A stretch of DNA of 49,753 nt from assembly GCA_016842065.1 (NCBI GenBank), contig JAEPDS010000029.1, positions 1 to 49,753 on the forward strand, in the 5' to 3' direction. Each line of letters starts with the position of its first letter. Within the stretch, counting starts at the first letter, position 1. A program made the position numbers and the translations under genes. This DNA comes from Candidatus Thiodiazotropha sp. 'RUGA' (GTDB taxonomy: Bacteria; Pseudomonadota; Gammaproteobacteria; Chromatiales; Chromatiaceae). This document shows, one piece after another, positions 788 through 47,549 of the stretch. The notes beneath the pieces were generated by a model. It saw only the letters and a list, made by a program, of their open reading frames with translations, was not told where the DNA came from and ran no database searches.

Positions 788-1319
788 CTAAAAGCTCCCT
801 GTTACAAACATCCTGATAATTAAGCACTGCTCATATTAATCACACTTTGGGCAAAAAAGCCAGTAACCCCCAATCCACGAGGCCCTTCTGTCAATATTCC
901 AGGAATTAATTCTTTAGGGCCTGTTAACACGAATCCAATGCGCCCTGTTGCGCCTGAAAAAGCGCCAATCAAGGCCCTAGCAGCAACCGTCTGTCACAGA
1001 TGCCGGGAAATCGTGATGATTAAGGAGAGGGCGACACTGACTCTAGCATCGATCACTCCGTTTTGGTTTTTTAATTGAATAGAACATTACTATCCTGTTA
1101 TGGATGTCCATTGAATAATTTTCTGCTTAAGTGCTGTTGCACCTACAGCCTGTGGAGGTAGGAGTGAATCGGCAACACTTACGGCTGATGATGGTTGCAG
1201 AAGATGGGTTCGGGTGTTGAACTGGCCAGTTCAGATTGCCGCCAAGCCAAAATCATCGTTCAGGTCATCTTCCCCGTAAACATCCAGGAGAAGGTGTCAG
1301 ATACTGAGTGTGGCTGATT
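788..1319. other. Intergenic region with one repeat arm
   Basis: No convincing gene is visible. The stretch holds the hemerythrin ribosome site and presumably its promoter next to 787, and the repeat at 914-980. I see nothing I can name in 981-1319. Confidence 0.6.
915..939 (+). repeat. Right 25-bp arm of inverted repeat flanking the hemerythrin gene
   Basis: Perfect inverted copy of 298-322. This copy is followed by about 33 bases and then GGCCCTAG (973-980), which can pair with the TTAGGGCC at its start (914-921). It is thus an enlarged version of the stem seen at 289-323. Confidence 0.85.
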
Positions 1320-1460
1320 TCAATACAAGCGCATGAAATCGGGTATCAGCCAGGGATTGCCCATGAGTACACTGACATGGTTGATCAGCAAGGCAAGAAA
1401 GCCGAGCACGACCAAGCTATATCCGCAGAGTTGCAGCGCATCCAGATCGTTGTCTTCCAT
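1320..1460 (-). CDS. Small membrane protein, 46 residues
   Basis: A short frame starts at ATG 1460-1458 and stops at TGA 1322-1320. It encodes an acidic start (MEDNDLDALQ), one hydrophobic segment of about 20 residues (YSLVVLGFLALLINHVSVLM) and a short tail ending in PDFMRLY. A good AGGAG ribosome site lies 6-7 bases before the ATG. The product looks like a single-pass inner-membrane protein. I do not recognise the family. It is the only frame in the 788-1609 gap with both a strong ribosome site and protein-like composition, but conservation is untested. Confidence 0.5.
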   Translation of the reverse strand: MEDNDLDALQLCGYSLVVLGFLALLINHVSVLMGNPWLIPDFMRLY

Positions 1461-1609
1461 TGTCCACTCCTGAGCAGGAATTGATGATGTTCTACTTTTT
1501 AGCAGCTGGATGAGGGTAATAACAGAGTAAAATAGTAAGGAAATAAGGGATCTCCCTGAATGGGCTGGAAAAACCCTAACATTCTGGCTTCGAAACGCTT
1601 GCTGGAGGC

Positions 1610-2938
1610 TTAAACGGTCTTGATGAAAACCTTGGATTTTCTCTGATAATTATAGAGCTTACGCTTCAGCATCGGCAGATCCTTCAAGCTGCCTGGTGCG
1701 AAGCCCCGCTCCTTGAACCATTGTGCGGATTGAGTTGTGAGGATGAAGAGTTTATGGATACCCTGTTTGGCGGCGACGGCCTCCATATGGGCAAGCAGGC
1801 GTTCTCCCCGGTCACTACCCCGGTACTCTGGGTGAACCACAACACAGGCCAACTCAGCCATGGACTCCTGTAGGTAGGGGTATAGTGCGGCGCAGGCGAC
1901 CACCATACCGTCCCTCTCCATGAGAGTGAATCGGTCAATTTCAGTCTCTATCAACTCTCTGGAGCGTCTTACCAGGATGCCCTTATCTTCCAGGGGTTCG
2001 ATCAATCCAAGCAGACCTACCACATCATCGATACGGGCTGTACGGGTCTCCTCGTAAGGTTCTGCCGATATCAGGGTGCCGATACCATCTCTGGTGAACA
2101 GTTCCTTGAGCAGTCCCCCATCCAACTGTCTGTCGATCAGGTGGCAACGTTTGACGCCGCTGCGACAGGCAGAGACGGCCGCTTTCAGGTTCTGCTTCAG
2201 ATCTTCCGAGAGTGTTTTCCTGCTGCTTAACAATCTGTCCACTTCACGAGGCGAGAGACTGGTGATCAGTCGCTTGCGCGAATCTGTCACTCCCTTGGCC
2301 TCGACCAGTGCGATCAGTTTGTCTGCGCCAAGCGCGGTGGCAACCGAAGCGGCCACATCGGCATAGCTGAGATTGAAGACTTCGCCGGTGGGTGAGTACC
2401 CCAGTGGCGGCACGATCGCGATTGCTCCGGACTCAAGCCGTTGTTCAATGCCGGCGGCATCCACCCTGCGTACCACGCCGGTATGGCCATAGTCGATGCC
2501 CTCTTTGACGCCCAGCGGTTTGGCAGTGACAAAATTCCCTGAGGCGGCACGAATCCTTACCCCGGCCATGGGAGAGTTGGCAAGCCCCATTGAGAGCAGG
2601 GCCTCTATCTCAACCCGCGCTGCGCCGGCAGCCTCTTTGACACAGGTCAGAGCCGGATCATCGGTGATCCTCAATCCGTTGACGAACTGGGTTTCAACGC
2701 CTCTGGTTTGCAGACGCTCTTCGATCTGCGGTCTGGCGCCATGCACCAGCACCAGTCTGATACCCAGACCGTGCAGCAGTGCAATATCGTGTATCAGGTT
2801 GGCAAAACCAGCGTTCGTGACAGCCTCGCCACCGAAGGTGATGACAAATGTTCGTCCGCGATGTGCGTGGATATAGGGGGATGAACCACGAAACCAGTCG
2901 ACAAACATGTCTTGCAGTTTTTGATCGCGTTTTTTCAT
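1610..2938 (-). CDS. argA: Amino-acid N-acetyltransferase (N-acetylglutamate synthase)
   Basis: First step of arginine synthesis: transfer of acetyl from acetyl-CoA to glutamate. The 442 residues match the usual ArgA length and two-part architecture. An amino-acid-kinase-like domain covers residues about 15-290 (FVITFGGEAV, LVLVHGARPQI, IVPPLGYSPTGE) and provides the arginine-feedback module in this family. A GNAT domain covers about 295-430, with the acetyl-CoA loop HPEYRGSDRGERLL. The gene lies 27 bases downstream of argE on the same strand, so the two probably form one operon covering acetylation and deacetylation of the pathway. Confidence 0.95.
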   Translation of the reverse strand: MKKRDQKLQDMFVDWFRGSSPYIHAHRGRTFVITFGGEAVTNAGFANLIHDIALLHGLGIRLVLVHGARPQIEERLQTRGVETQFVNGLRITDDPALTCVKEAAGAARVEIEALLSMGLANSPMAGVRIRAASGNFVTAKPLGVKEGIDYGHTGVVRRVDAAGIEQRLESGAIAIVPPLGYSPTGEVFNLSYADVAASVATALGADKLIALVEAKGVTDSRKRLITSLSPREVDRLLSSRKTLSEDLKQNLKAAVSACRSGVKRCHLIDRQLDGGLLKELFTRDGIGTLISAEPYEETRTARIDDVVGLLGLIEPLEDKGILVRRSRELIETEIDRFTLMERDGMVVACAALYPYLQESMAELACVVVHPEYRGSDRGERLLAHMEAVAAKQGIHKLFILTTQSAQWFKERGFAPGSLKDLPMLKRKLYNYQRKSKVFIKTV

Positions 2939-2965
2939 CTTGTGAGAATAGCCCTAAGCCGCTGT

Positions 2966-4111
2966 CTATAAACAAAACTTCCTGATCAGTGACTGTATCA
3001 GGTTAATCGCAGGTTGAATATGTTCGAGGGGGATATATTCATCCGGTTGGTGAGCCTGATCGATACTTCCCGGACCACAGATAACCGTCTCCATGCCCAT
3101 GCTGTTCAGGTAAGGGGCTTCGGTGCCAAATGCCACGGCGCCCGCCTGGCTGTCAGTGAATCTTTCCACCGCTTTGACAATGGCTGCCTCGGCTGGGGTT
3201 TCTACGGCAGGTATCCCATCGAACAGAGGTTTGTAGTGCCACTCCAGACCGCTATCGGAGAGACAGGATTCGATGCGCTCACTCAGTTCTGCTCTGAGTA
3301 GCTGCAGATCCATGCCAGGTAGGGGTCTGAGATCGAACTGAAGCTCGCACTGGCCACAGATCCGGTTTGGATTGTCTCCCCCGTGAATATGGCCCAGATT
3401 GAGGGTGGGCACATCGATTTCGAATGCCGGATTTTTATAACGACGCTGAAGATCCGTCCGCCAGTTCAGTACCTCACCAAGCACCAGCTGCATGCCATCC
3501 AGTGCATTTCTGCCAAGCCGTGGATTGCTGGAGTGGCCCGATTGTCCGGTGAGTACGATCGATTCCATGGATACCCCCTTATGCATACGCACCGGCTTCA
3601 GACCGGTGGGTTCACCGATCACCGCATGACGGCCCAATTGGCGATGCAGCTCCAGCAATGACTTTGCGCCGCACATGTCACTCTCTTCATCGGCGGTGGC
3701 CACTATTACCAGGGGTCTCTTCAGTTGGTCGAGAGGGAGCTCTCGGACGGCCTCAAGGATGACCGCGAAAAATCCTTTCATATCCGCCGTGCCGATGCCG
3801 TACAGGCGTTGCTCCCGTTCACTCAGTTTAAGTGGGTCCGAGCTCCATTTATCCTCATCGAAGGGGACGGTATCCGTATGGCCGGAGAGCACCAGTCCAT
3901 CGCTGCCTCGGCCGCAGGTGGCGATCAGGTTGAGTTTTCCGGGACGGCCGGGAACGGCGAGGATCTCGGTCTCGAAACCCAGCGAGCTGAACCAGCTGTC
4001 CAGTAGTTCGATCACAGCGCCGTTACCCATATCCCATTCGGGATTGACACTGCTTACCGAGGCCGCGCTGATCAGCCGGCTCATCATTTCGATATAGTTG
4101 GGAAATTTCAT
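2966..4111 (-). CDS. argE: Acetylornithine deacetylase
   Basis: Releases ornithine from N-acetylornithine in arginine synthesis (M20 zinc peptidase family). Counting from the start chosen here, dinuclear zinc ligands are visible as H78 in SGHTDTVP, D110 in GTADMKG and E142/E143 in TADEESD. The dimerisation lid follows from about residue 175. I chose the ATG at 4111 (MKFPNYIEMMSRL), because the 12 extra residues of the alternative start at 4147 look unlike the family; neither start has a strong ribosome site. The gene precedes argA by 27 bases. Confidence 0.92.
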   Translation of the reverse strand: MKFPNYIEMMSRLISAASVSSVNPEWDMGNGAVIELLDSWFSSLGFETEILAVPGRPGKLNLIATCGRGSDGLVLSGHTDTVPFDEDKWSSDPLKLSEREQRLYGIGTADMKGFFAVILEAVRELPLDQLKRPLVIVATADEESDMCGAKSLLELHRQLGRHAVIGEPTGLKPVRMHKGVSMESIVLTGQSGHSSNPRLGRNALDGMQLVLGEVLNWRTDLQRRYKNPAFEIDVPTLNLGHIHGGDNPNRICGQCELQFDLRPLPGMDLQLLRAELSERIESCLSDSGLEWHYKPLFDGIPAVETPAEAAIVKAVERFTDSQAGAVAFGTEAPYLNSMGMETVICGPGSIDQAHQPDEYIPLEHIQPAINLIQSLIRKFCL

Positions 4112-39616: not shown

Positions 39617-39950
39617 GATCTCTCTCCAGAGTGATACAGACAGAAGTGAATTCCGTGTATCCAGATAGTGTGATTCTGTTATTTCAAAATAGTAACAAAT
39701 GTATACGATCGTTTCAGTTAATTGTGGCCGGGTAATACCATGCCAAAAATGTTTACACTGTTCAGTTGGGGTCGGTGGGAGATTGTAGCCTATTCAGCTG
39801 CAGAATAATTTGAACGTTGAATCATTGTTCTGGTTGCTGTTGCCGGTATTCGGCTTTAGGCTTACCTGGCTTTTAGCTGTAACAACAATCCTAACAATCG
39901 ATAACCGGGCAGCTATACGCAGCCCGTGTGTTCACAAGAGGGAGAAATAC
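39617..39950. other. Intergenic region upstream of the MNIO unit
   Basis: 334 bases that must hold the promoters of both divergent units. No operator, repeat or clear promoter stands out. An in-frame ATG at 39810 exists but lacks a ribosome site. Confidence 0.45.
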
Positions 39951-40196
39951 ATGGAGTATCCAACCGCTATCGCACTCGATAAAGACGCTCTGCGGAGCAA
40001 TGTAGTACGCGTCACGATCCCCGCCAAAGCGATGTTTGACCTTAAAAAAATGCAAAAAATAACCGAATCGGTGCTTGATCAACTTGGTTGCAGCAATTGC
40101 CACTCAGGACATGACATTCGATTCGATATCGAGAGACAGTTCATCGTGGATGAGAAGTTGAAAGTTCACAGTCAGATGGAATTGATGCGGCGTTGA
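39951..40196 (+). CDS. Small CSNCH-motif protein, candidate substrate or partner of the MNIO enzyme
   Basis: 81 residues, no signal peptide. A short N-terminal stretch and a VRVTIPAKAMFDL strand-helix lead into a helix (KKMQKITESVLDQLG). Then comes C47-SN-C50-H51-SG-H54, followed by DIRFDIERQFIVDE and a charged tail. The CxxCH motif without export signal argues against a c-type cytochrome. GAGGGAG precedes ATG 39951. The stop overlaps the TTG start of the MNIO gene by four bases, so the pair is translationally coupled. Known MNIO enzymes modify cysteines in small coupled peptides, so a substrate role is likely but unproven. Confidence 0.65.
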   Translation: MEYPTAIALDKDALRSNVVRVTIPAKAMFDLKKMQKITESVLDQLGCSNCHSGHDIRFDIERQFIVDEKLKVHSQMELMRR

Positions 40197-41653
40197 AGAT
40201 AGAACCGCTGGGCGTAGGCCTGGTCTACATTCCGGGACTCGAACCCCTGTTCGAGTCACCGGATGGGGCGGTTCAGGTATTGGAACTTGAGCCGCAGGTG
40301 TTATGGCGCTACTTCCCCAATAAGGATCAGCCCTATCAGAATCAACTTGAATTTCTGAAACGGTTACAAGCCCTGCCTCAGGCCAAGACCATCCATGGCG
40401 TCGGCTTTCCCGTAGGCGGTTCGCGGATTCCTGATCCCAGGCATATCCTCCCACTACGCGAAGCGATTCAAACCCTGAATGGGGCCTGGGCCAGCGAACA
40501 CCTGGTGTTCAATGAATCTGTCGATGCACAGGGTAATTCGGTACAAACCGGTTTTTTTCTGCCACCTCTGGCAACACCTGCAGGAGTCGAAGCCGCCTGT
40601 CGAACCATTACTGCGGTGTCTGGTAAGCTCCCGGTGCCTTTTGCAGTGGAGACGCCAACCAACTATCTCAAGCCCATACCCGGTGAGATGAGTGATGGGC
40701 AATTTACCGCAGCAGTGGTCGAGGCGGCGGATTGCGGCATTCTTCTCGATCTGCACAATATCTGGTCGAATGAGCGTAACGGCCGGCAAACGGTTGAGGA
40801 CTTTCTCAGTGAGATACCACTCGATCGGGTCTATGAGATCCACCTGGCCGGAGGCTTGAAGTATGGGGACTATTGGCTCGATGCCCACTCCGGGGATATC
40901 CCGCCTCCTGTTATCGAATGGGCGCGCAGGTTGATTCCCTATCTGCCCAATCTTGGTGCAGTGATCTATGAGATTCTACCCGCCTATCTTCCCCGCTTTG
41001 GCCTGGAAGGTGTGCGACGGGCTGTTGATGAGATGCATGATCTCTGGAGTTGTCGTCGCGCTGCTCAGGAGAGTGACAGCCTATTTAAAAAACCAGAACC
41101 GAAGACGCTAGCCACCGACAATGGATTAACCCCTGAGGTCTGGGAGAGAAAGCTCTCTGCACAGATACTCTTCCCGGGCGAGTATGAGGATGAATTGAGC
41201 AGACAACTTGCCAATGATCCGGCTGTTGCTCTGATCCGGGAACTGAACAGAAAGTTCCGTTTGAGCGCAGTCATTTCCAATCTCAGGATGAGTATCCGAT
41301 TGCTGATGCTGAGTCTGGACGAGGCATCGTTTGATCGGCTTGTGGCAAACTACTGTTTCAGTCGGACACCGGATCGATTCGCGGTTAACGAGGCACATCA
41401 TTTCGCCGACTACATCAGAAAACTCGATCTGGAAATTCCCTATCTGTACGAACTCCTGAATTACGAAATAACCGCTATGGATGTCATCGCCGACGGTCAG
41501 GCGCGTAGTGTCCCCTTTACCACTGACCCTCAAACACTGCTTGAGACCCTCGGCCGGGGTGAGTTACCGGTCGATCTGCCGACGGCTGATTATGAGGCTG
41601 AGATCACGCCGCCGGAAGAGCGGGTGTTCGAAACCCAAAATCTAATCCATTAA
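40193..41653 (+). CDS. MNIO (DUF692) iron enzyme with fused C-terminal partner-like domain
   Basis: 486 residues. The first 285 form a DUF692/MNIO TIM barrel. Typical iron ligands can be placed: H68 (TIHGVG), H103 (ASEHLVF), E153 (VETPTN), D186 and N189 (LLDLHN), H217 (EIHLAGG), D230/H232 (LDAHSGD) and E260 (IYEILPAY). Family members (MbnB, TglH, ChrH, BufB) use two or three irons and O2 to rebuild peptide cysteines. Residues about 315-470 resemble the helical partner protein (DUF2063/HvfC-like) that is usually a separate gene: FDRLVANYCFSRTPDRFAV, YLYELLNYEITAMDV. Start is TTG, overlapping the small gene. It is back to back with lexA at its 3' end. Confidence 0.85.
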   Translation: MKIEPLGVGLVYIPGLEPLFESPDGAVQVLELEPQVLWRYFPNKDQPYQNQLEFLKRLQALPQAKTIHGVGFPVGGSRIPDPRHILPLREAIQTLNGAWASEHLVFNESVDAQGNSVQTGFFLPPLATPAGVEAACRTITAVSGKLPVPFAVETPTNYLKPIPGEMSDGQFTAAVVEAADCGILLDLHNIWSNERNGRQTVEDFLSEIPLDRVYEIHLAGGLKYGDYWLDAHSGDIPPPVIEWARRLIPYLPNLGAVIYEILPAYLPRFGLEGVRRAVDEMHDLWSCRRAAQESDSLFKKPEPKTLATDNGLTPEVWERKLSAQILFPGEYEDELSRQLANDPAVALIRELNRKFRLSAVISNLRMSIRLLMLSLDEASFDRLVANYCFSRTPDRFAVNEAHHFADYIRKLDLEIPYLYELLNYEITAMDVIADGQARSVPFTTDPQTLLETLGRGELPVDLPTADYEAEITPPEERVFETQNLIH

Positions 41654-42241
41654 CTACCTGTCGTAGGTTCTCACGACGCCTAATAATATCCCCTGGATCT
41701 GTAGCCTCTCGGCAGCATAAATCTGCGCTTTCATCTGATCATTGTGAGGAATGAGCTTAATCTTTTTTCCACCATCTATTGTTTGGAATTCTTTCAAGGA
41801 TGCCTCTTCGTTATCGACCAGGGCGACGACAATTTGTCCATTGCTCGCGGTATTCGATGGTTTTATCACAACCAGATCGCCATCCAGAATGCCGCTGTTG
41901 ATCATCGACTCGCCTTTTATCTTGAGCAGAAAACAGTCCGGCTGTATCAATAACGTGGTGAGATCGATCGTCTCATCCTGCTCCACCGCCTCAATCGGTC
42001 GTCCGGCCGCGATCACGCCCTTGTAGGGAAGTTCGTTAGGCGAACGGAGCGTACGCCAGCCTGAACGGGCCTTTTCGAGAAAGCCCTTATCCTTGATGGA
42101 AGTGACATAGCGGTGGACCGTTCCCACCGATTTGATGCCGCAGCCTTCACCGATTTCAGACAGCTTGGGGGATTGACCGTCATGGTTCCTGAGGTAGTCC
42201 CCGATGAATAGCAGGATCTTTTTTTCCAGTTCCGTCAGCAC
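41654..42241 (-). CDS. lexA: LexA-type SOS repressor
   Basis: 195 residues. An N-terminal winged helix covers 1-65 (PKLSEIGEGCGIKSVGTVHR). The self-cleavage site is A79-G80 (IAAGRP). Catalytic S112 (GESM) and K150 (ASLKEF) are intact. It should repress its own gene and the divergent imuA-imuB-dnaE2. The recognition helix differs from that of E. coli LexA, consistent with the special operator at 42258. This is the LexA2-like copy that typically travels with this cassette; a second lexA may exist elsewhere. Confidence 0.9.
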   Translation of the reverse strand: MLTELEKKILLFIGDYLRNHDGQSPKLSEIGEGCGIKSVGTVHRYVTSIKDKGFLEKARSGWRTLRSPNELPYKGVIAAGRPIEAVEQDETIDLTTLLIQPDCFLLKIKGESMINSGILDGDLVVIKPSNTASNGQIVVALVDNEEASLKEFQTIDGGKKIKLIPHNDQMKAQIYAAERLQIQGILLGVVRTYDR

Positions 42242-42257
42242 TTGACTTTCTCCGAAA

Positions 42258-42292
42258 TTTCTCTAGCCTAGAATAGAGAAAATTTAGAGAAA
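42258..42292. promoter_or_regulatory. Candidate LexA2 operator in the lexA-imuA promoter
   Basis: TTTCTCTA (42258-42265), eight bases, TAGAGAAA (42274-42281) form a perfect dyad. A further TAGAGAAA follows at 42285-42292. A -10-like TAGAAT (42269-42274) for imuA lies within the spacer and half-site, so occupancy would block transcription. No CTGT-N8-ACAG box is present. Confidence 0.6.
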
Positions 42293-42318
42293 CATCAACT
42301 CCTTTCGGGGATTGTTTT

Positions 42319-42930
42319 GTGAAAGAACCCTTAAAGAAACTGTTAAATAACAACCAGTTGATATGGTGTGGTGAAAGATGCACCCCCACCAGACGGGGTT
42401 TGCCAACCGGTCATGCCGCACTGGACGCCATTCTGCCTGAAGCCGGATGGTTGCCGGGTGCGTTGATCGAGGTGATCTCGCCTCAATGGGGCATTGGCGA
42501 AATAGAGCTCTTTCTGCCGGCCATGGCCGCTGCCACGCAGGCGGATAAGCAGTTGGTATGGATCGCTCCGCCCTATATCCCTTACCCGCCCGCTCTGGTA
42601 AGCGGCGGTATTTCATTAAGCCATCTGCTGGTGCTGCATCCACCTCGGCATCAGGATATCCCCTGGGCGATGGAGACGGTGCTGCGCCAGCGCCGGTGTG
42701 CCATGGTGTTGGCATGGCCGGGCCGGCTGATATCGAAAACGGTACGGCGCCTGCAGTTAGCCGCCGAGGCGGGGGGCGGGGTGGGCGTATTGTTTCGCTC
42801 GGAACATCGCGACAGCTCTTTTGCGGCAACACGTTTGCTGCTAAAACCCGGTACCTCCGGCTTACAGGTCACCATTCTGAAAAGCCGCGCGACCCGTGGT
42901 CGACAGACGGTCGCTCTCGCGCTTCACTGA
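42319..42930 (+). CDS. imuA: ImuA, translesion synthesis accessory protein
   Basis: 203 residues of the ImuA/SulA-like family, related to RecA in fold but without an intact Walker A. Recognisable parts are TRRGLPTGHAALDAILPEAG near the start, WLPGALIEV, and the C-terminal TRLLLKPGTSGLQVTILKSR. ImuA helps ImuB and DnaE2 in damage-induced mutagenesis. It is the first gene of the cassette, transcribed from the LexA-controlled divergent promoter. Confidence 0.92.
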   Translation: MKEPLKKLLNNNQLIWCGERCTPTRRGLPTGHAALDAILPEAGWLPGALIEVISPQWGIGEIELFLPAMAAATQADKQLVWIAPPYIPYPPALVSGGISLSHLLVLHPPRHQDIPWAMETVLRQRRCAMVLAWPGRLISKTVRRLQLAAEAGGGVGVLFRSEHRDSSFAATRLLLKPGTSGLQVTILKSRATRGRQTVALALH

Positions 42931-42942
42931 TGCTTTGCTGTC

Positions 42943-44451
42943 ATGTCCAGATCCGCCGCAGCCGCGCCCCTTCAACACTCCCTGTTTTCGCCCCAGTCAC
43001 CAGTGCTTCCCAGGCCGTCTGCGACAGGGCGTTCAGTGCTGTGGATGAGTCTCTTTTTTCCCCGTTTATCCCTGCAGGTGCTGGAAGCGGATGTGGATGC
43101 CAGGCCCTGGGCGGTGATCGATGAAGCCCATGGCAAACCGATCGTCCACGCCGCGTCACAACCGGCCCGCAAGATGGGGGTGGAGAGCGGTATGGCGCTT
43201 ACCGCGGCTTATGCGTTGTGTCCCGAGCTGGAGGCCGAACCGCGTGATCGCTCGGCCGAACAGGCCTGCTTAACCGATCTGGCCGACGGGGCCATGCAGT
43301 ACAGCTCCGTGGTCAGCCTGGAGCCTCAGGCATTGCTGTTGGAGGTAGCTGCCAGTTTGAAGTTGTTTGGCGGTTTGCAGGCACTGTACGAGCGAGTGGA
43401 AGGCGATCTGCGGCAGCAACCCTATGATGTGGAGATTGCGGTTGCTCCCTCGCCACAGGCGGCTTTGTTGCTGGCGCGTTGCGCTATGCAGACCTGCATC
43501 ACTGAACGCGCTGCGTTGCGCGCAGAGCTGGGTAGACTGCCGCTTGCGGTACTGCCCGTTTCCGAGAAGCAGGCGACTCTGCTCGGCAGAATGGGTTTGC
43601 GGGAGTTGCGTGATGTATGGCGCCTTCCCAGAGCGGGATTGATAAAACGATTGGGGCTGGAGTTTATCGACTATCTCGATCGGTTGTTGTGTGACAAACC
43701 CGAACTTCGCTTATCCCATAAGAGCGCAGCGAATTTCTCTGCCTCCTGGTGCTTCCCTCAAGAGACGGAAAACTTGACCTTCATACTCTACGGCATCGAG
43801 CAGCTCCTGCCGCGCTTGGTGAACTTCATGCGCTTGCGGGAATTGGCGCTGAACCGACTCCAGGTAGTCTTTTATCATCAAGACAAACAGGCATCGCGTC
43901 TGGAATTGGGTACACGACAGCTATGCCGTGACGAAACGCACCTATCGACACTGATACGCGAACGCTTTAATCAGGAGAAACTGTCGGCACCGGTATTGGA
44001 GTTGGTGCTGCTCGCTGAGGAGTTTCATCCTGCCGTTATCGGCAATCAATCGCTGTTTGCGCCGGGTGAAGAACAGGGCAGCGATTGGCAACAGGTGTTG
44101 GATCAGCTGCAGACCCGCTTGGGAGAAGAGGCGGTATGCCATCTGCAACTGCGTGATGAGCACCGACCCGAATACGCCTGGGCTTATACTCCGGTCCAAC
44201 CTATAGAGCAAAAAAGTCATGGGTTATTGAAGAGACGCCCGATCTGGCTGATGTCACAGCCACAGCGACTGGGCAGTGGATTGAAAGAGATTCAATTGAC
44301 TTCCGAAACGGAACGCATCGAGGGTGGCTGGTGGGATGGTTTTGATATCCGTCGCGATTACTATCGGGCACGTGATCGTCATGGCCGGCGTTTGTGGCTG
44401 TTTCGCAATCTACAGGATGGGGAGTGGTATCTGCAGGGTTTGTTCGGGTAA
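42943..44451 (+). CDS. imuB: ImuB, catalytically inactive Y-family polymerase
   Basis: 502 residues with the Y-family fold: palm start VLWMSLFFPRLSLQVLEADV, where the catalytic aspartates of true polymerases are absent. ImuB bridges ImuA, DnaE2 and the sliding clamp. Two clamp-binding-like motifs are visible, QHSLF at residues 11-15 and QSLF at 369-372. The second lies where family members carry theirs. A 30-residue extension before the fold is unusual. Start at ATG 42943, 12 bases after imuA. Confidence 0.92.
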   Translation: MSRSAAAAPLQHSLFSPQSPVLPRPSATGRSVLWMSLFFPRLSLQVLEADVDARPWAVIDEAHGKPIVHAASQPARKMGVESGMALTAAYALCPELEAEPRDRSAEQACLTDLADGAMQYSSVVSLEPQALLLEVAASLKLFGGLQALYERVEGDLRQQPYDVEIAVAPSPQAALLLARCAMQTCITERAALRAELGRLPLAVLPVSEKQATLLGRMGLRELRDVWRLPRAGLIKRLGLEFIDYLDRLLCDKPELRLSHKSAANFSASWCFPQETENLTFILYGIEQLLPRLVNFMRLRELALNRLQVVFYHQDKQASRLELGTRQLCRDETHLSTLIRERFNQEKLSAPVLELVLLAEEFHPAVIGNQSLFAPGEEQGSDWQQVLDQLQTRLGEEAVCHLQLRDEHRPEYAWAYTPVQPIEQKSHGLLKRRPIWLMSQPQRLGSGLKEIQLTSETERIEGGWWDGFDIRRDYYRARDRHGRRLWLFRNLQDGEWYLQGLFG

Positions 44452-44462
44452 GGGGATTGGAT

Positions 44463-47400
44463 ATGTCCTATGCCGAACTCCACTGCATCAGCAACTTCAC
44501 CTTTTTACAGGGTGCCTCCCACCCGGAGGAGCTCGTCGCACGCGCGGCGCTGCTCAACTATCGCGCCCTGGCCATCACCGACGAGTGCACACTGGCCGGT
44601 GTGGTACGCGCCCATGTGGAGGCCAAGCGGCAGCAACTCCACCTCATTATCGGCAGTCGGTTCAGGCTGGATGACGGCCTGTCATTTTTACTCTTGGCGA
44701 CCAACCGTAAGGGCTACGGCCAGCTCTCCACCTTGATCTCAACGGCACGCCGCAATGCGGATAAAGGCGACTATCATCTGACCCGTCTCGATTTGACCCG
44801 GCATAGCCTGAGTGACTGCCTTGCTTTATGGCTGCCGGGAGAAGCGCAGGAGGTTGTTTTTCTCAACGAGCTTTTCCCCAAGCGATTGTGGATCGCGGTA
44901 GAGCTGTCACTGACGGACAAGGATCGGGCGCACCTGGAACATCTGCGGCGTCTGTCCCAGCACCACGGTATCCCCCTAACGGCTAGCGGTAATGTACAGA
45001 TGCATCAACGCAATCGGCGTATCCTGCACGATACCCTAACCGCAATTCGTTTCAACATGCCCCTGGCGCAACTGGGTAAACGATTGGCCGCGAATGGAGA
45101 AGGTCACCTGCGCCCTTACCAGCGCCTGGCAGAAATCTACCCTCAGGAGCTGTTGCAGGAAACCCTGACTATTGCCGAACGCTGTACCTTCTCGCTGTAT
45201 GAGTTGCGTTACGAGTACCCCAGTGAACTGGTACCTGAAGGTTACAGCGCCACTGACTGGTTGCGCATCCAGGTTGAAGCCGGTGCCAAAGAGCGCTGGC
45301 CGCAAGGGGTACCGGATAGAGTCAGAAAAGCGATCAAACATGAACTGGCGCTGATCGCCGAACTGAACTATGAACCCTATTTTCTCACCATTTACGATAT
45401 CGTCTGTTTTGCGCGCCGACAGAAGATTCTTTGCCAGGGTCGAGGCTCGGCGGCCAATTCCACGGTCTGTTACTGTCTCGGCATTACCGCTGTCGACCCG
45501 GCCCGTATGGCGCTGTTGTTCGAAAGATTCATCTCAAAGGAGCGCAATGAGCCTCCGGATATCGATGTGGATTTTGAGAACGCCCGGCGTGAAGAGGTGA
45601 TTCAATACATCTATCGAAAATATGGACGTGAACGAGCGGCCCTGGTTGCCACCGTGATTACCTACCAGCCACGCAGCGCGATACGCGACGTAGGCAAGGC
45701 GCTTGGATTCAGCCCGGTGCAGGTAGAGCGTCTGGCCAGATCCACCCGCTGGTGGGACAGTCAGGTGTTGATCCCCGACCACCTGGCTGAAATGGGCTTT
45801 TCCGCAGAGAGCCCTTTGATCAAACGACTGATCACCCTGGTGGAGATGCTGCTCGGGTTTCCTCGCCATCTCTCCCAGCATGTCGGTGGTTTCATCATCT
45901 CGGCTGGACCGTTGACTCAACTAGTGCCGATTGAAAATGCAGCGATGCAGGACCGAACGGTGATCCAGTGGGAAAAAAACGATGTCGAAGCGCTTGGGTT
46001 ACTGAAGATGGACGTATTGGCGCTGGGTATGCTGACGGCCCTGCGCAAGGCGTTGGGATACATTTCTGCGTCGCAGAAACGGGAACTCTCTCTGTCAGAT
46101 ATTCCAGCGGAAGATCCCAAAGTCTACGAAATGATCAGCCGTGCCGATACAGTGGGCCTGTTCCAAATCGAATCCCGGGCGCAGATGTCGATGCTGCCCA
46201 GGTTGCAACCGCGCAATTACTATGACCTGGTGATTCAGATCGCCATCGTTCGTCCAGGCCCTATACAGGGCGAGATGGTGCATCCCTATCTCTTGCGTCG
46301 CAGCGGCAAGGCACCCGTCACCTATCCCAGCGAGGCGATTCGTTCGGTATTGGAGCGCACCCTGGGCGTGCCGATTTTTCAAGAGCAAGTGATGCAGATT
46401 GCCATGGTGGCGGCCGGTTTCAGTGCGGGTGAAGCGGACCAGTTACGTCGTGCCATGGCGGCCTGGAAACGCAAAGGTGGGCTGGAGCCGTTTCAGAAAA
46501 AGCTGCACAGCGGCATGTGCAAACGAGGTTACAGCGGTGAATTTGCGCAACAGATCTTTCGTCAAATTCGCGGTTTCAGTGATTACGGATTTCCCGAGTC
46601 CCACTCAGCCAGCTTTGCCTTGCTGGCCTATGCCTCGGCCTGGATGAAACTCTATCACCCGGCTGTATACGTTTGCGCACTCTTGAATAGTCAACCGATG
46701 GGATTCTATGCCCCGGCGCAACTGATACAGGATGCCAAACGGCATGGCGTGGAAGTACGTCCAATTGACGTGCGCTTCAGCGAAGCGGACTCCACCCTTG
46801 AATACGATACCCGCGGGGAGCGTTGCGAAGAGCCCAACACACGACCCGCCTTGCGCTTGGGATTGAATATGGTCAAAGGTCTCTCAGAGGAGGGTATTCA
46901 AAATCTGATTGATGCGCGTAAGCGGAAAGCTTTCAACGATGTGGGTGAACTCGCCAATCGAGCCAAACTCCAGCGTGTCGATCTGCAAGCCCTGGCCAGT
47001 GCTGATGCGCTGCAGGGTTTTTCAGGGGATCGTTATCGTGCCCAGTGGCAGGTGAGTGGTGTGGAGGAGCCCTTGCCCCTGTTCCAGGAGTACCACTCCG
47101 AAACTACCGATGTCATGCTGCCCAAACCCGATGAGCGGGAGGAGATCATTGCCGATTATGCCAGTAGCGGTGTGAGCCTGCGGCGCCATCCTGTCGCTTT
47201 GTTGAGAGCCCGCCTGGAGAAAAGACGCGTTCATACGGCACAGGCACTCTGGTCGGTGCGCAATGGTGCCGTCGCCCGGACCGCAGGACTGGTTATCGGT
47301 CGTCAACGCCCCGGCACGGCCTCCGGCGTCATTTTTGTCACCCTGGAAGATGAAACCGGTCAAGCCAATATCATCGTCTGGCCGAAGATCGCCGAAGCGC

Positions 47401-47549
47401 AACGTAAGCCTCTGTTACAGTCACAGCTATTGATCGTCAGCGGTATCGTGCAACAGCAGGATGGGGTGTTGCATTTAATTGCCGGGCGTTTGGAGGATCG
47501 TACTGACTGGCTGGGGGAGCTGGAGACAAAATCGAGGGATTTTCATTGA
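44463..47549 (+). CDS. dnaE2: DnaE2, error-prone DNA polymerase
   Basis: 1028 residues, the usual length. A PHP domain starts the protein ([20 protein letters not shown]). The polymerase active site includes [10 protein letters not shown] near residue 385-395, and fingers and the helix-hairpin-helix region follow ([20 protein letters not shown]). A C-terminal OB fold is seen in [14 protein letters not shown] and [16 protein letters not shown]. It is the catalytic polymerase of SOS mutagenesis. AGGGGA precedes ATG 44463, 11 bases after imuB. Confidence 0.95.

Follow-up and report, generated by a model that had tools for sequence, protein, structure and literature searches.

Enzymes of the multinuclear non-haem iron-dependent oxidase family (MNIO, DUF692) are hard to dissect chemically, as most of them need a separate partner protein. 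An engineered HvfB-HvfC fusion is active, and HvfC is required for the active iron state (PMC13419390). Here we describe an overlapping pair of genes, encoding an 81-aa protein and an MNIO with a C-terminal extension, in a 49,753-nucleotide stretch of Candidatus Thiodiazotropha sp. 'RUGA' (assembly GCA_016842065.1, contig JAEPDS010000029.1), referred to in its whole length as the window. The host bacterium is a clam symbiont; among named bacteria, its closest relatives are Candidatus Thiodiazotropha and a Stewartia floridana symbiont. The pair probably forms a minimal modification module, in which a self-partnered MNIO would oxidise the co-encoded small protein, likely at Cys47/Cys50.

The two genes are tightly coupled. 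As an earlier note on this DNA had described, they overlap by four bases, with the TGA stop of the small gene and the TTG start of the enzyme sharing TTGA. The same overlap occurs in five relatives (loci L006, L007, L009, L011 and L013; G, L and C numbers are our handles for genomes, loci and contigs); in G191 the genes overlap by a single base (TAATG), and in G341 they lie 33 bases apart. An alternative, longer TTG frame from position 39810 would add a hydrophobic stretch to the small protein; we kept the ATG at 39951 because the in-frame upstream extension of the relatives is short and different, or absent. Read from this start, the open reading frame (ORF) gives the 81-residue protein with C47-SN-C50-H51-SG-H54 that the note had described. 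Homologues of the small protein adjoin a fused enzyme in all eight genomes that carry them, so the possibility that they occur mostly away from a DUF692 neighbour did not hold. The overlapping pair is supported as a two-gene MNIO system whose small protein lacks a signal peptide.

By fold and predicted ligand positions, the enzyme is an MNIO. It matches PF05114 with 125.6 bits (cut-off 25; 138.2 bits in G341 and 139.9 in G191), and the ligand-like residues H68, H103, E153, D186, N189, H217, D230 and H232 all fall among the 20 columns that are invariant over seven MNIO sequences (fused, bufferin-type and TglH-like), in agreement with the iron ligands placed in the earlier note. The counterpart of a late glutamate (E260) failed to align cleanly in this comparison. 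A fold search, which aligned enzyme residues 4-291 only, superposes the catalytic domain on MNIO structures with the TIM-barrel fold of MbnB and TglH, the outcome on which the initial assignment had been made to depend. Within the same aligned range, the partner chains TglI, MbnC and NGO1945 were absent from the best 50 rows of this search (VIA-align). The enzyme scores 103 bits against the BufB equivalog NF050167 (cut-off 310). A tree built from 37 catalytic domains groups the six fused enzymes in a single clade (support 98/97), separate from the bufferin-type rows; the TglH-like row (branch length 8.4) and the enzyme of locus L067 sit on very long branches, and their positions are unsure. 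The L067 enzyme (1297-3104, G328) is a divergent MNIO followed by a 306-aa protein without a Pfam match, perhaps another type of partner.

The C-terminal extension is a real extra domain, modelled as helices (residues 314-434) followed by a short beta-alpha-beta unit. In hhalign comparisons, a profile of six such domains resembled five DUF2063-type partners (probability 44.5%, E 2.3e-4, 76 columns) and 17 partners adjoining other MNIOs (probability 68.3%, 60 columns). With single sequences, the 17 partners scored a mean of 18.1 vs 14.3 for 81 decoys (p 5e-5); among the decoys are a genuine partner (BufC of G341, rank 14) and some orthologues that are near-duplicates. Because of this profile similarity, the domain is likely to be a divergent MNIO partner domain standing in for the helper protein, and an 'all-in-one enzyme', as the earlier note called it, is probable. 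Of the roughly 200 partner-like residues described there, the extension itself stands, and the likeness is moderate. Nor is the architecture unique, as 'unusual' might imply, since natural bufferin-type MNIO-DUF2063 fusions occur in two other genomes, both from the class sample, and the engineered HvfB-HvfC fusion is active. These natural fusions (L047 1300-3063 in G425, 587 aa; L072 1220-2926 in G300, 568 aa) have both PF05114 and PF09836 over the cut-off in a single open frame and sit among the bufferin-type rows of the tree.

The small protein is recognisable by a core, G46-C47-x-x-C50-[HC]51-S52-G53-[HW]54-D55-I56-R57, that holds across an alignment of eight of the nine copies found (the G122 copy, whose protein is identical to that of G124, was omitted). 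C47, C50, S52, G53, D55, I56 and R57 are invariant in all eight rows. The two histidines, first read as part of the conserved motif, are not: H51 is replaced by cysteine in three of the eight rows and H54 by tryptophan in two. Members have 75-86 residues and two to three cysteines, and no Pfam or NCBIfam family matches the small protein above its cut-off. The absence of an export signal agrees with the hydropathy, by which alone it was judged: the best 12-residue window within the first 40 residues reaches 1.2, vs 2.1 and 1.7 in the two signal-bearing bufferin precursors of the same genome; a Sec signal peptide is typical of bufferins.

Constraint on the small protein is strong over its whole length. 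The ratio of nonsynonymous to synonymous differences per site (pN/pS) was 0.02-0.03 against the four closest relatives and 0.18 against G139; pS was 0.79 and pN 0.023 against G132, and pN increased to 0.15 against G139. The corresponding ratio of substitution rates (dN/dS) relative to the window's genome was 0.02 (G142), 0.01 (G124) and 0.01 (G122), vs 0.13 (G142) and 0.09 (G124) for the enzyme and 0.04 (G142), 0.10 (G124), 0.11 (G122) and 0.08 (G132) for the control Buf1 precursor. A second bufferin precursor, with 0 (G142), 0.05 (G122) and 0.02 (G132), is not always less constrained than the small protein. Conservation of this extent is more in keeping with a folded protein than with a leader followed by a variable core.

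Among 210 genomes of the order, the small protein is real in seven and the C-terminal domain in eight (one further match each is due to chance); within the genus, the small protein occurs in 6/22 genomes and the enzyme in 7/22. G131 has the C-terminal domain without the small protein, and its contig ends within the enzyme gene (L008). Outside the order, 369 genomes of the class and 398 of the phylum, two samples that overlap, yielded one more genome with the pair, G341, where two tandem small proteins (CTACCSGWDIRF) precede the fused enzyme, with a bufferin-type MNIO and a gene for a DUF2063 protein alongside; three other genomes of the same genus lack the pair. Searches of the class and phylum with an enzyme profile scored at most three to four candidates per genome. 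They detected MNIOs at E 1e-10 in at least 210 of 350 class genomes, and among the matches listed, only those of the window's own genome (916 bits) and G341 (788 bits) were full-length; the next best listed match, at 123 bits, covers the catalytic domain only. At E 1e-36, the 398 phylum genomes gave none besides the own genome. In plasmids, the enzyme matched only MNIOs below 60% identity, none spanning 80% of the query, and searches of plasmids and viral contigs with the small protein found nothing. Overall, the pair appears to represent a known type of system in a rare, compact form.

Five weaker matches were rejected as chance. Those to the small protein lie within a 1345-aa frame (G198, E 0.0085), in a sequence with internal stops (G491, E 0.00998), on the opposite strand of a long open frame that by eye resembles an RND transporter (G684, E 3.7e-5) and, with chance again our judgement, at the start of a protein that by eye resembles EAL-domain proteins (G700, E 0.001). 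The match to the C-terminal domain falls in a 646-aa frame that by eye resembles a peptidyl-prolyl isomerase (G010, E 0.0066). The EAL-domain-like protein of G700 (L031 850-1614) opens with LGCAECSTGCDLDFEF, a faint likeness to the motif that is probably fortuitous. In G132, a decayed fragment resembling small-protein residues 7-32, with an internal stop, lies away from the intact pair (L017 ~1500-1600, contig C255).

We propose that the partner domain, being on the same chain, would let one polypeptide both recognise the substrate and stabilise the iron site. In the cytosol, the enzyme would bind the 81-aa protein translated along with it, and a di- or tri-iron centre would use O2 to oxidise a residue in the conserved G-C-x-x-C-x-S-G-x-D-I-R loop; Cys47 and/or Cys50 would be the likeliest target, with Asp55 as runner-up. 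By analogy with MbnBC and HvfBC, the substrate cysteine might sit on a ferric iron and O2 on a ferrous iron (PMC13419390), while the fused domain may secure the iron state and grip the small protein. The product would remain a small folded protein, altered at one or two residues; a role for it connected with copper or redox chemistry is a guess drawn from the bufferins.

Several points weigh against this proposal. The assignments of substrate and activity draw on sequence and structural models. The small protein is conserved along its entire length, more so than is usual for precursors made of leader and core, and the structure predicted for it is of low confidence (pLDDT 57.7; order beta, helix, motif, beta). 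The loci have no protease, transporter or tailoring gene in common. For the C-terminal domain, the single-sequence hhalign ranges of partners and decoys overlap, and the top score belongs to a decoy (16 columns); Pfam DUF2063 is found in none of the six members, nor in the full-length G341 and G191 proteins, and a sequence search of the PDB with the domain returned no partner match. Given these missing DUF2063 and PDB matches, its role as a partner falls short of proof.

The alternative that fares best, possible but doubtful, would make the pair part of the published adjamnio-7 family of signal-less CxxC precursors next to cluster 7 MNIOs, and hence a known candidate class. The gross features agree, i.e. 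no signal peptide, a CxxC motif and an adjacent MNIO (PMC12452194); the likeness to its representative WP_078758616 is, however, one of description only, and the available part of that source mentions no fused partner for cluster 7 enzymes. Rather unlikely is the notion that the product is a resident intracellular cofactor protein and not a secreted peptide, in which one or both of the CxxC cysteines would become a heterocycle or thioamide and create a new protein-bound metal or redox centre.

D55, I56 and R57 are invariant to the same degree as the cysteines, and MNIOs acting on aspartate are known (PesH, PflD and ApyH; PMC13060819). The enzyme might thus hydroxylate or oxidise Asp55 (or Arg57), with the cysteine pair merely shaping or metallating the loop. 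We consider this a genuine but unlikely alternative: the third-site HxD motif is missing in PesH and PflD (PMC13060819), whereas the enzyme of the pair retains the site-3 positions, and most of the described MNIO precursors have conserved cysteine motifs (PMC12452194). Slightly less likely still, the small protein could serve the enzyme as a subunit or as its metal chaperone, and the true substrate would be found elsewhere. Its whole-length constraint, which is stronger than in the enzyme and in the Buf1 precursor of these genomes, and the absence of a separate partner gene at the locus would suit such a role; the tandem copies in G341, the precursor-first order and the invariant cysteine pair suit a substrate better, and no further gene accompanies the pair between loci. 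A chance neighbourhood, in which the small protein would be c-type cytochrome-like or a zinc ribbon, is very improbable, as the CxxCH of the window copy and sub-cut-off Pfam matches to Cytochrom_c3_2 (5/8 members, best E 0.03) and Cytochrom_C552 (3/8, best E 0.022) stand against a missing export signal, coupling to the enzyme in 8/8 genomes and a cysteine at position 51 in 3/8 rows, the resulting CxxCC also ruling out haem c binding.

If the self-partnered module is correct, a natural one-chain MNIO with a single short, signal-less substrate and without further conserved genes would reduce the system to two proteins, a minimal set for studies of expression, structure and mechanism. The fused enzyme would reveal how partner and catalytic domains are placed relative to each other, and the targets of MNIOs would widen from exported metal-binding peptides to conserved cytosolic proteins.

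The coordinates of the pair are given below together with a non-coding block of about 55 bases, strongly kept and gap-free in five genomes, for which we found neither an Rfam match nor a sigma-70-like site.

Features of the MNIO gene pair and its upstream region (window positions)
Feature	Position	Strand	Remarks
Conserved non-coding block upstream of the small gene	39819..39874	+	5-genome alignment
Small gene	39951..40196	+	ORF, 81 aa; probable substrate of the adjoining enzyme
Small-protein motif C47-S-N-C50-H-S-G-H-D-I-R57	40089..40121	+	Conserved in 8-row alignment
MNIO (DUF692) enzyme gene	40193..41653	+	486 aa, TTG start, C-terminal extension
Catalytic TIM-barrel domain	40193..41059	+	Enzyme residues ~1-289
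C-terminal domain of the enzyme	41090..41650	+	Residues ~300-486; probable divergent partner domain; model and hhalign

The flanks on both sides of the pair are common to the window, G142 and G124, and partly to G132 and G122. G139 and the window share only the pair, those of G191 and G341 lie amid yet other genes, and no third gene tracks the pair between loci. At ten loci of the genus (L082-L091) with a neighbouring 100-aa gene and without the pair, the 19 other window proteins that were compared found no match nearby. Downstream, 41654-47549 holds a convergent LexA-like gene (Pfam) and then, by eye, imuA-imuB-dnaE2-like mutagenesis genes, a stretch common to the window, L006 and L007.

Two further MNIOs are encoded in the window's own genome, both accompanied by a precursor with an export signal and by a DUF2063 partner; their clusters lie at L001 1105-3120 and L002 708-2624, the latter with DUF2282. 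G139 carries the pair, and neither of these two MNIOs was matched there at E 1e-30. At two other loci (L051 2278-3567 and L059 2220-3476), a protein of ~420 aa takes the place of the small precursor ahead of the MNIO-partner pair. In the part of the literature covered, we found neither this pair described nor, besides MovX and ChrH, any natural fusion of an MNIO with its partner.

Compared with described systems, the pair resembles BufABC in having a small cysteine protein upstream of an MNIO and an expected partner function. Bufferin precursors, however, have an N-terminal export signal and at least six cysteines, as opposed to two cysteines and no signal here, and the BufC proteins of L001 and L002 carry the DUF2063 that the extension lacks. 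The fusions of L047 and L072 likewise place the MNIO before the partner on one chain, but are bufferin-type by tree position, with a recognisable DUF2063 part. In the TglHI system of pearlin and 3-thiaglutamate, TglI is a separate chain, a methyltransferase was by eye not seen beside the window pair, and the TglH-like row lies apart from the fused clade, its own place being unsure. Adjamnio-IV precursors share CxxCC with some members of our family and are listed without a PME gene (PMC12452194); at 119-146 residues with five to six cysteines, they lie outside the range of the family described here. MovX, like the window enzyme, has a fused partner-like domain and no separate partner (PMC12452194, PMC13419390); by description, its C-terminal domain is a winged-helix/RRE, whereas the extension of the window enzyme is modelled as a helical bundle with a short beta-alpha-beta unit and not as just a winged helix.
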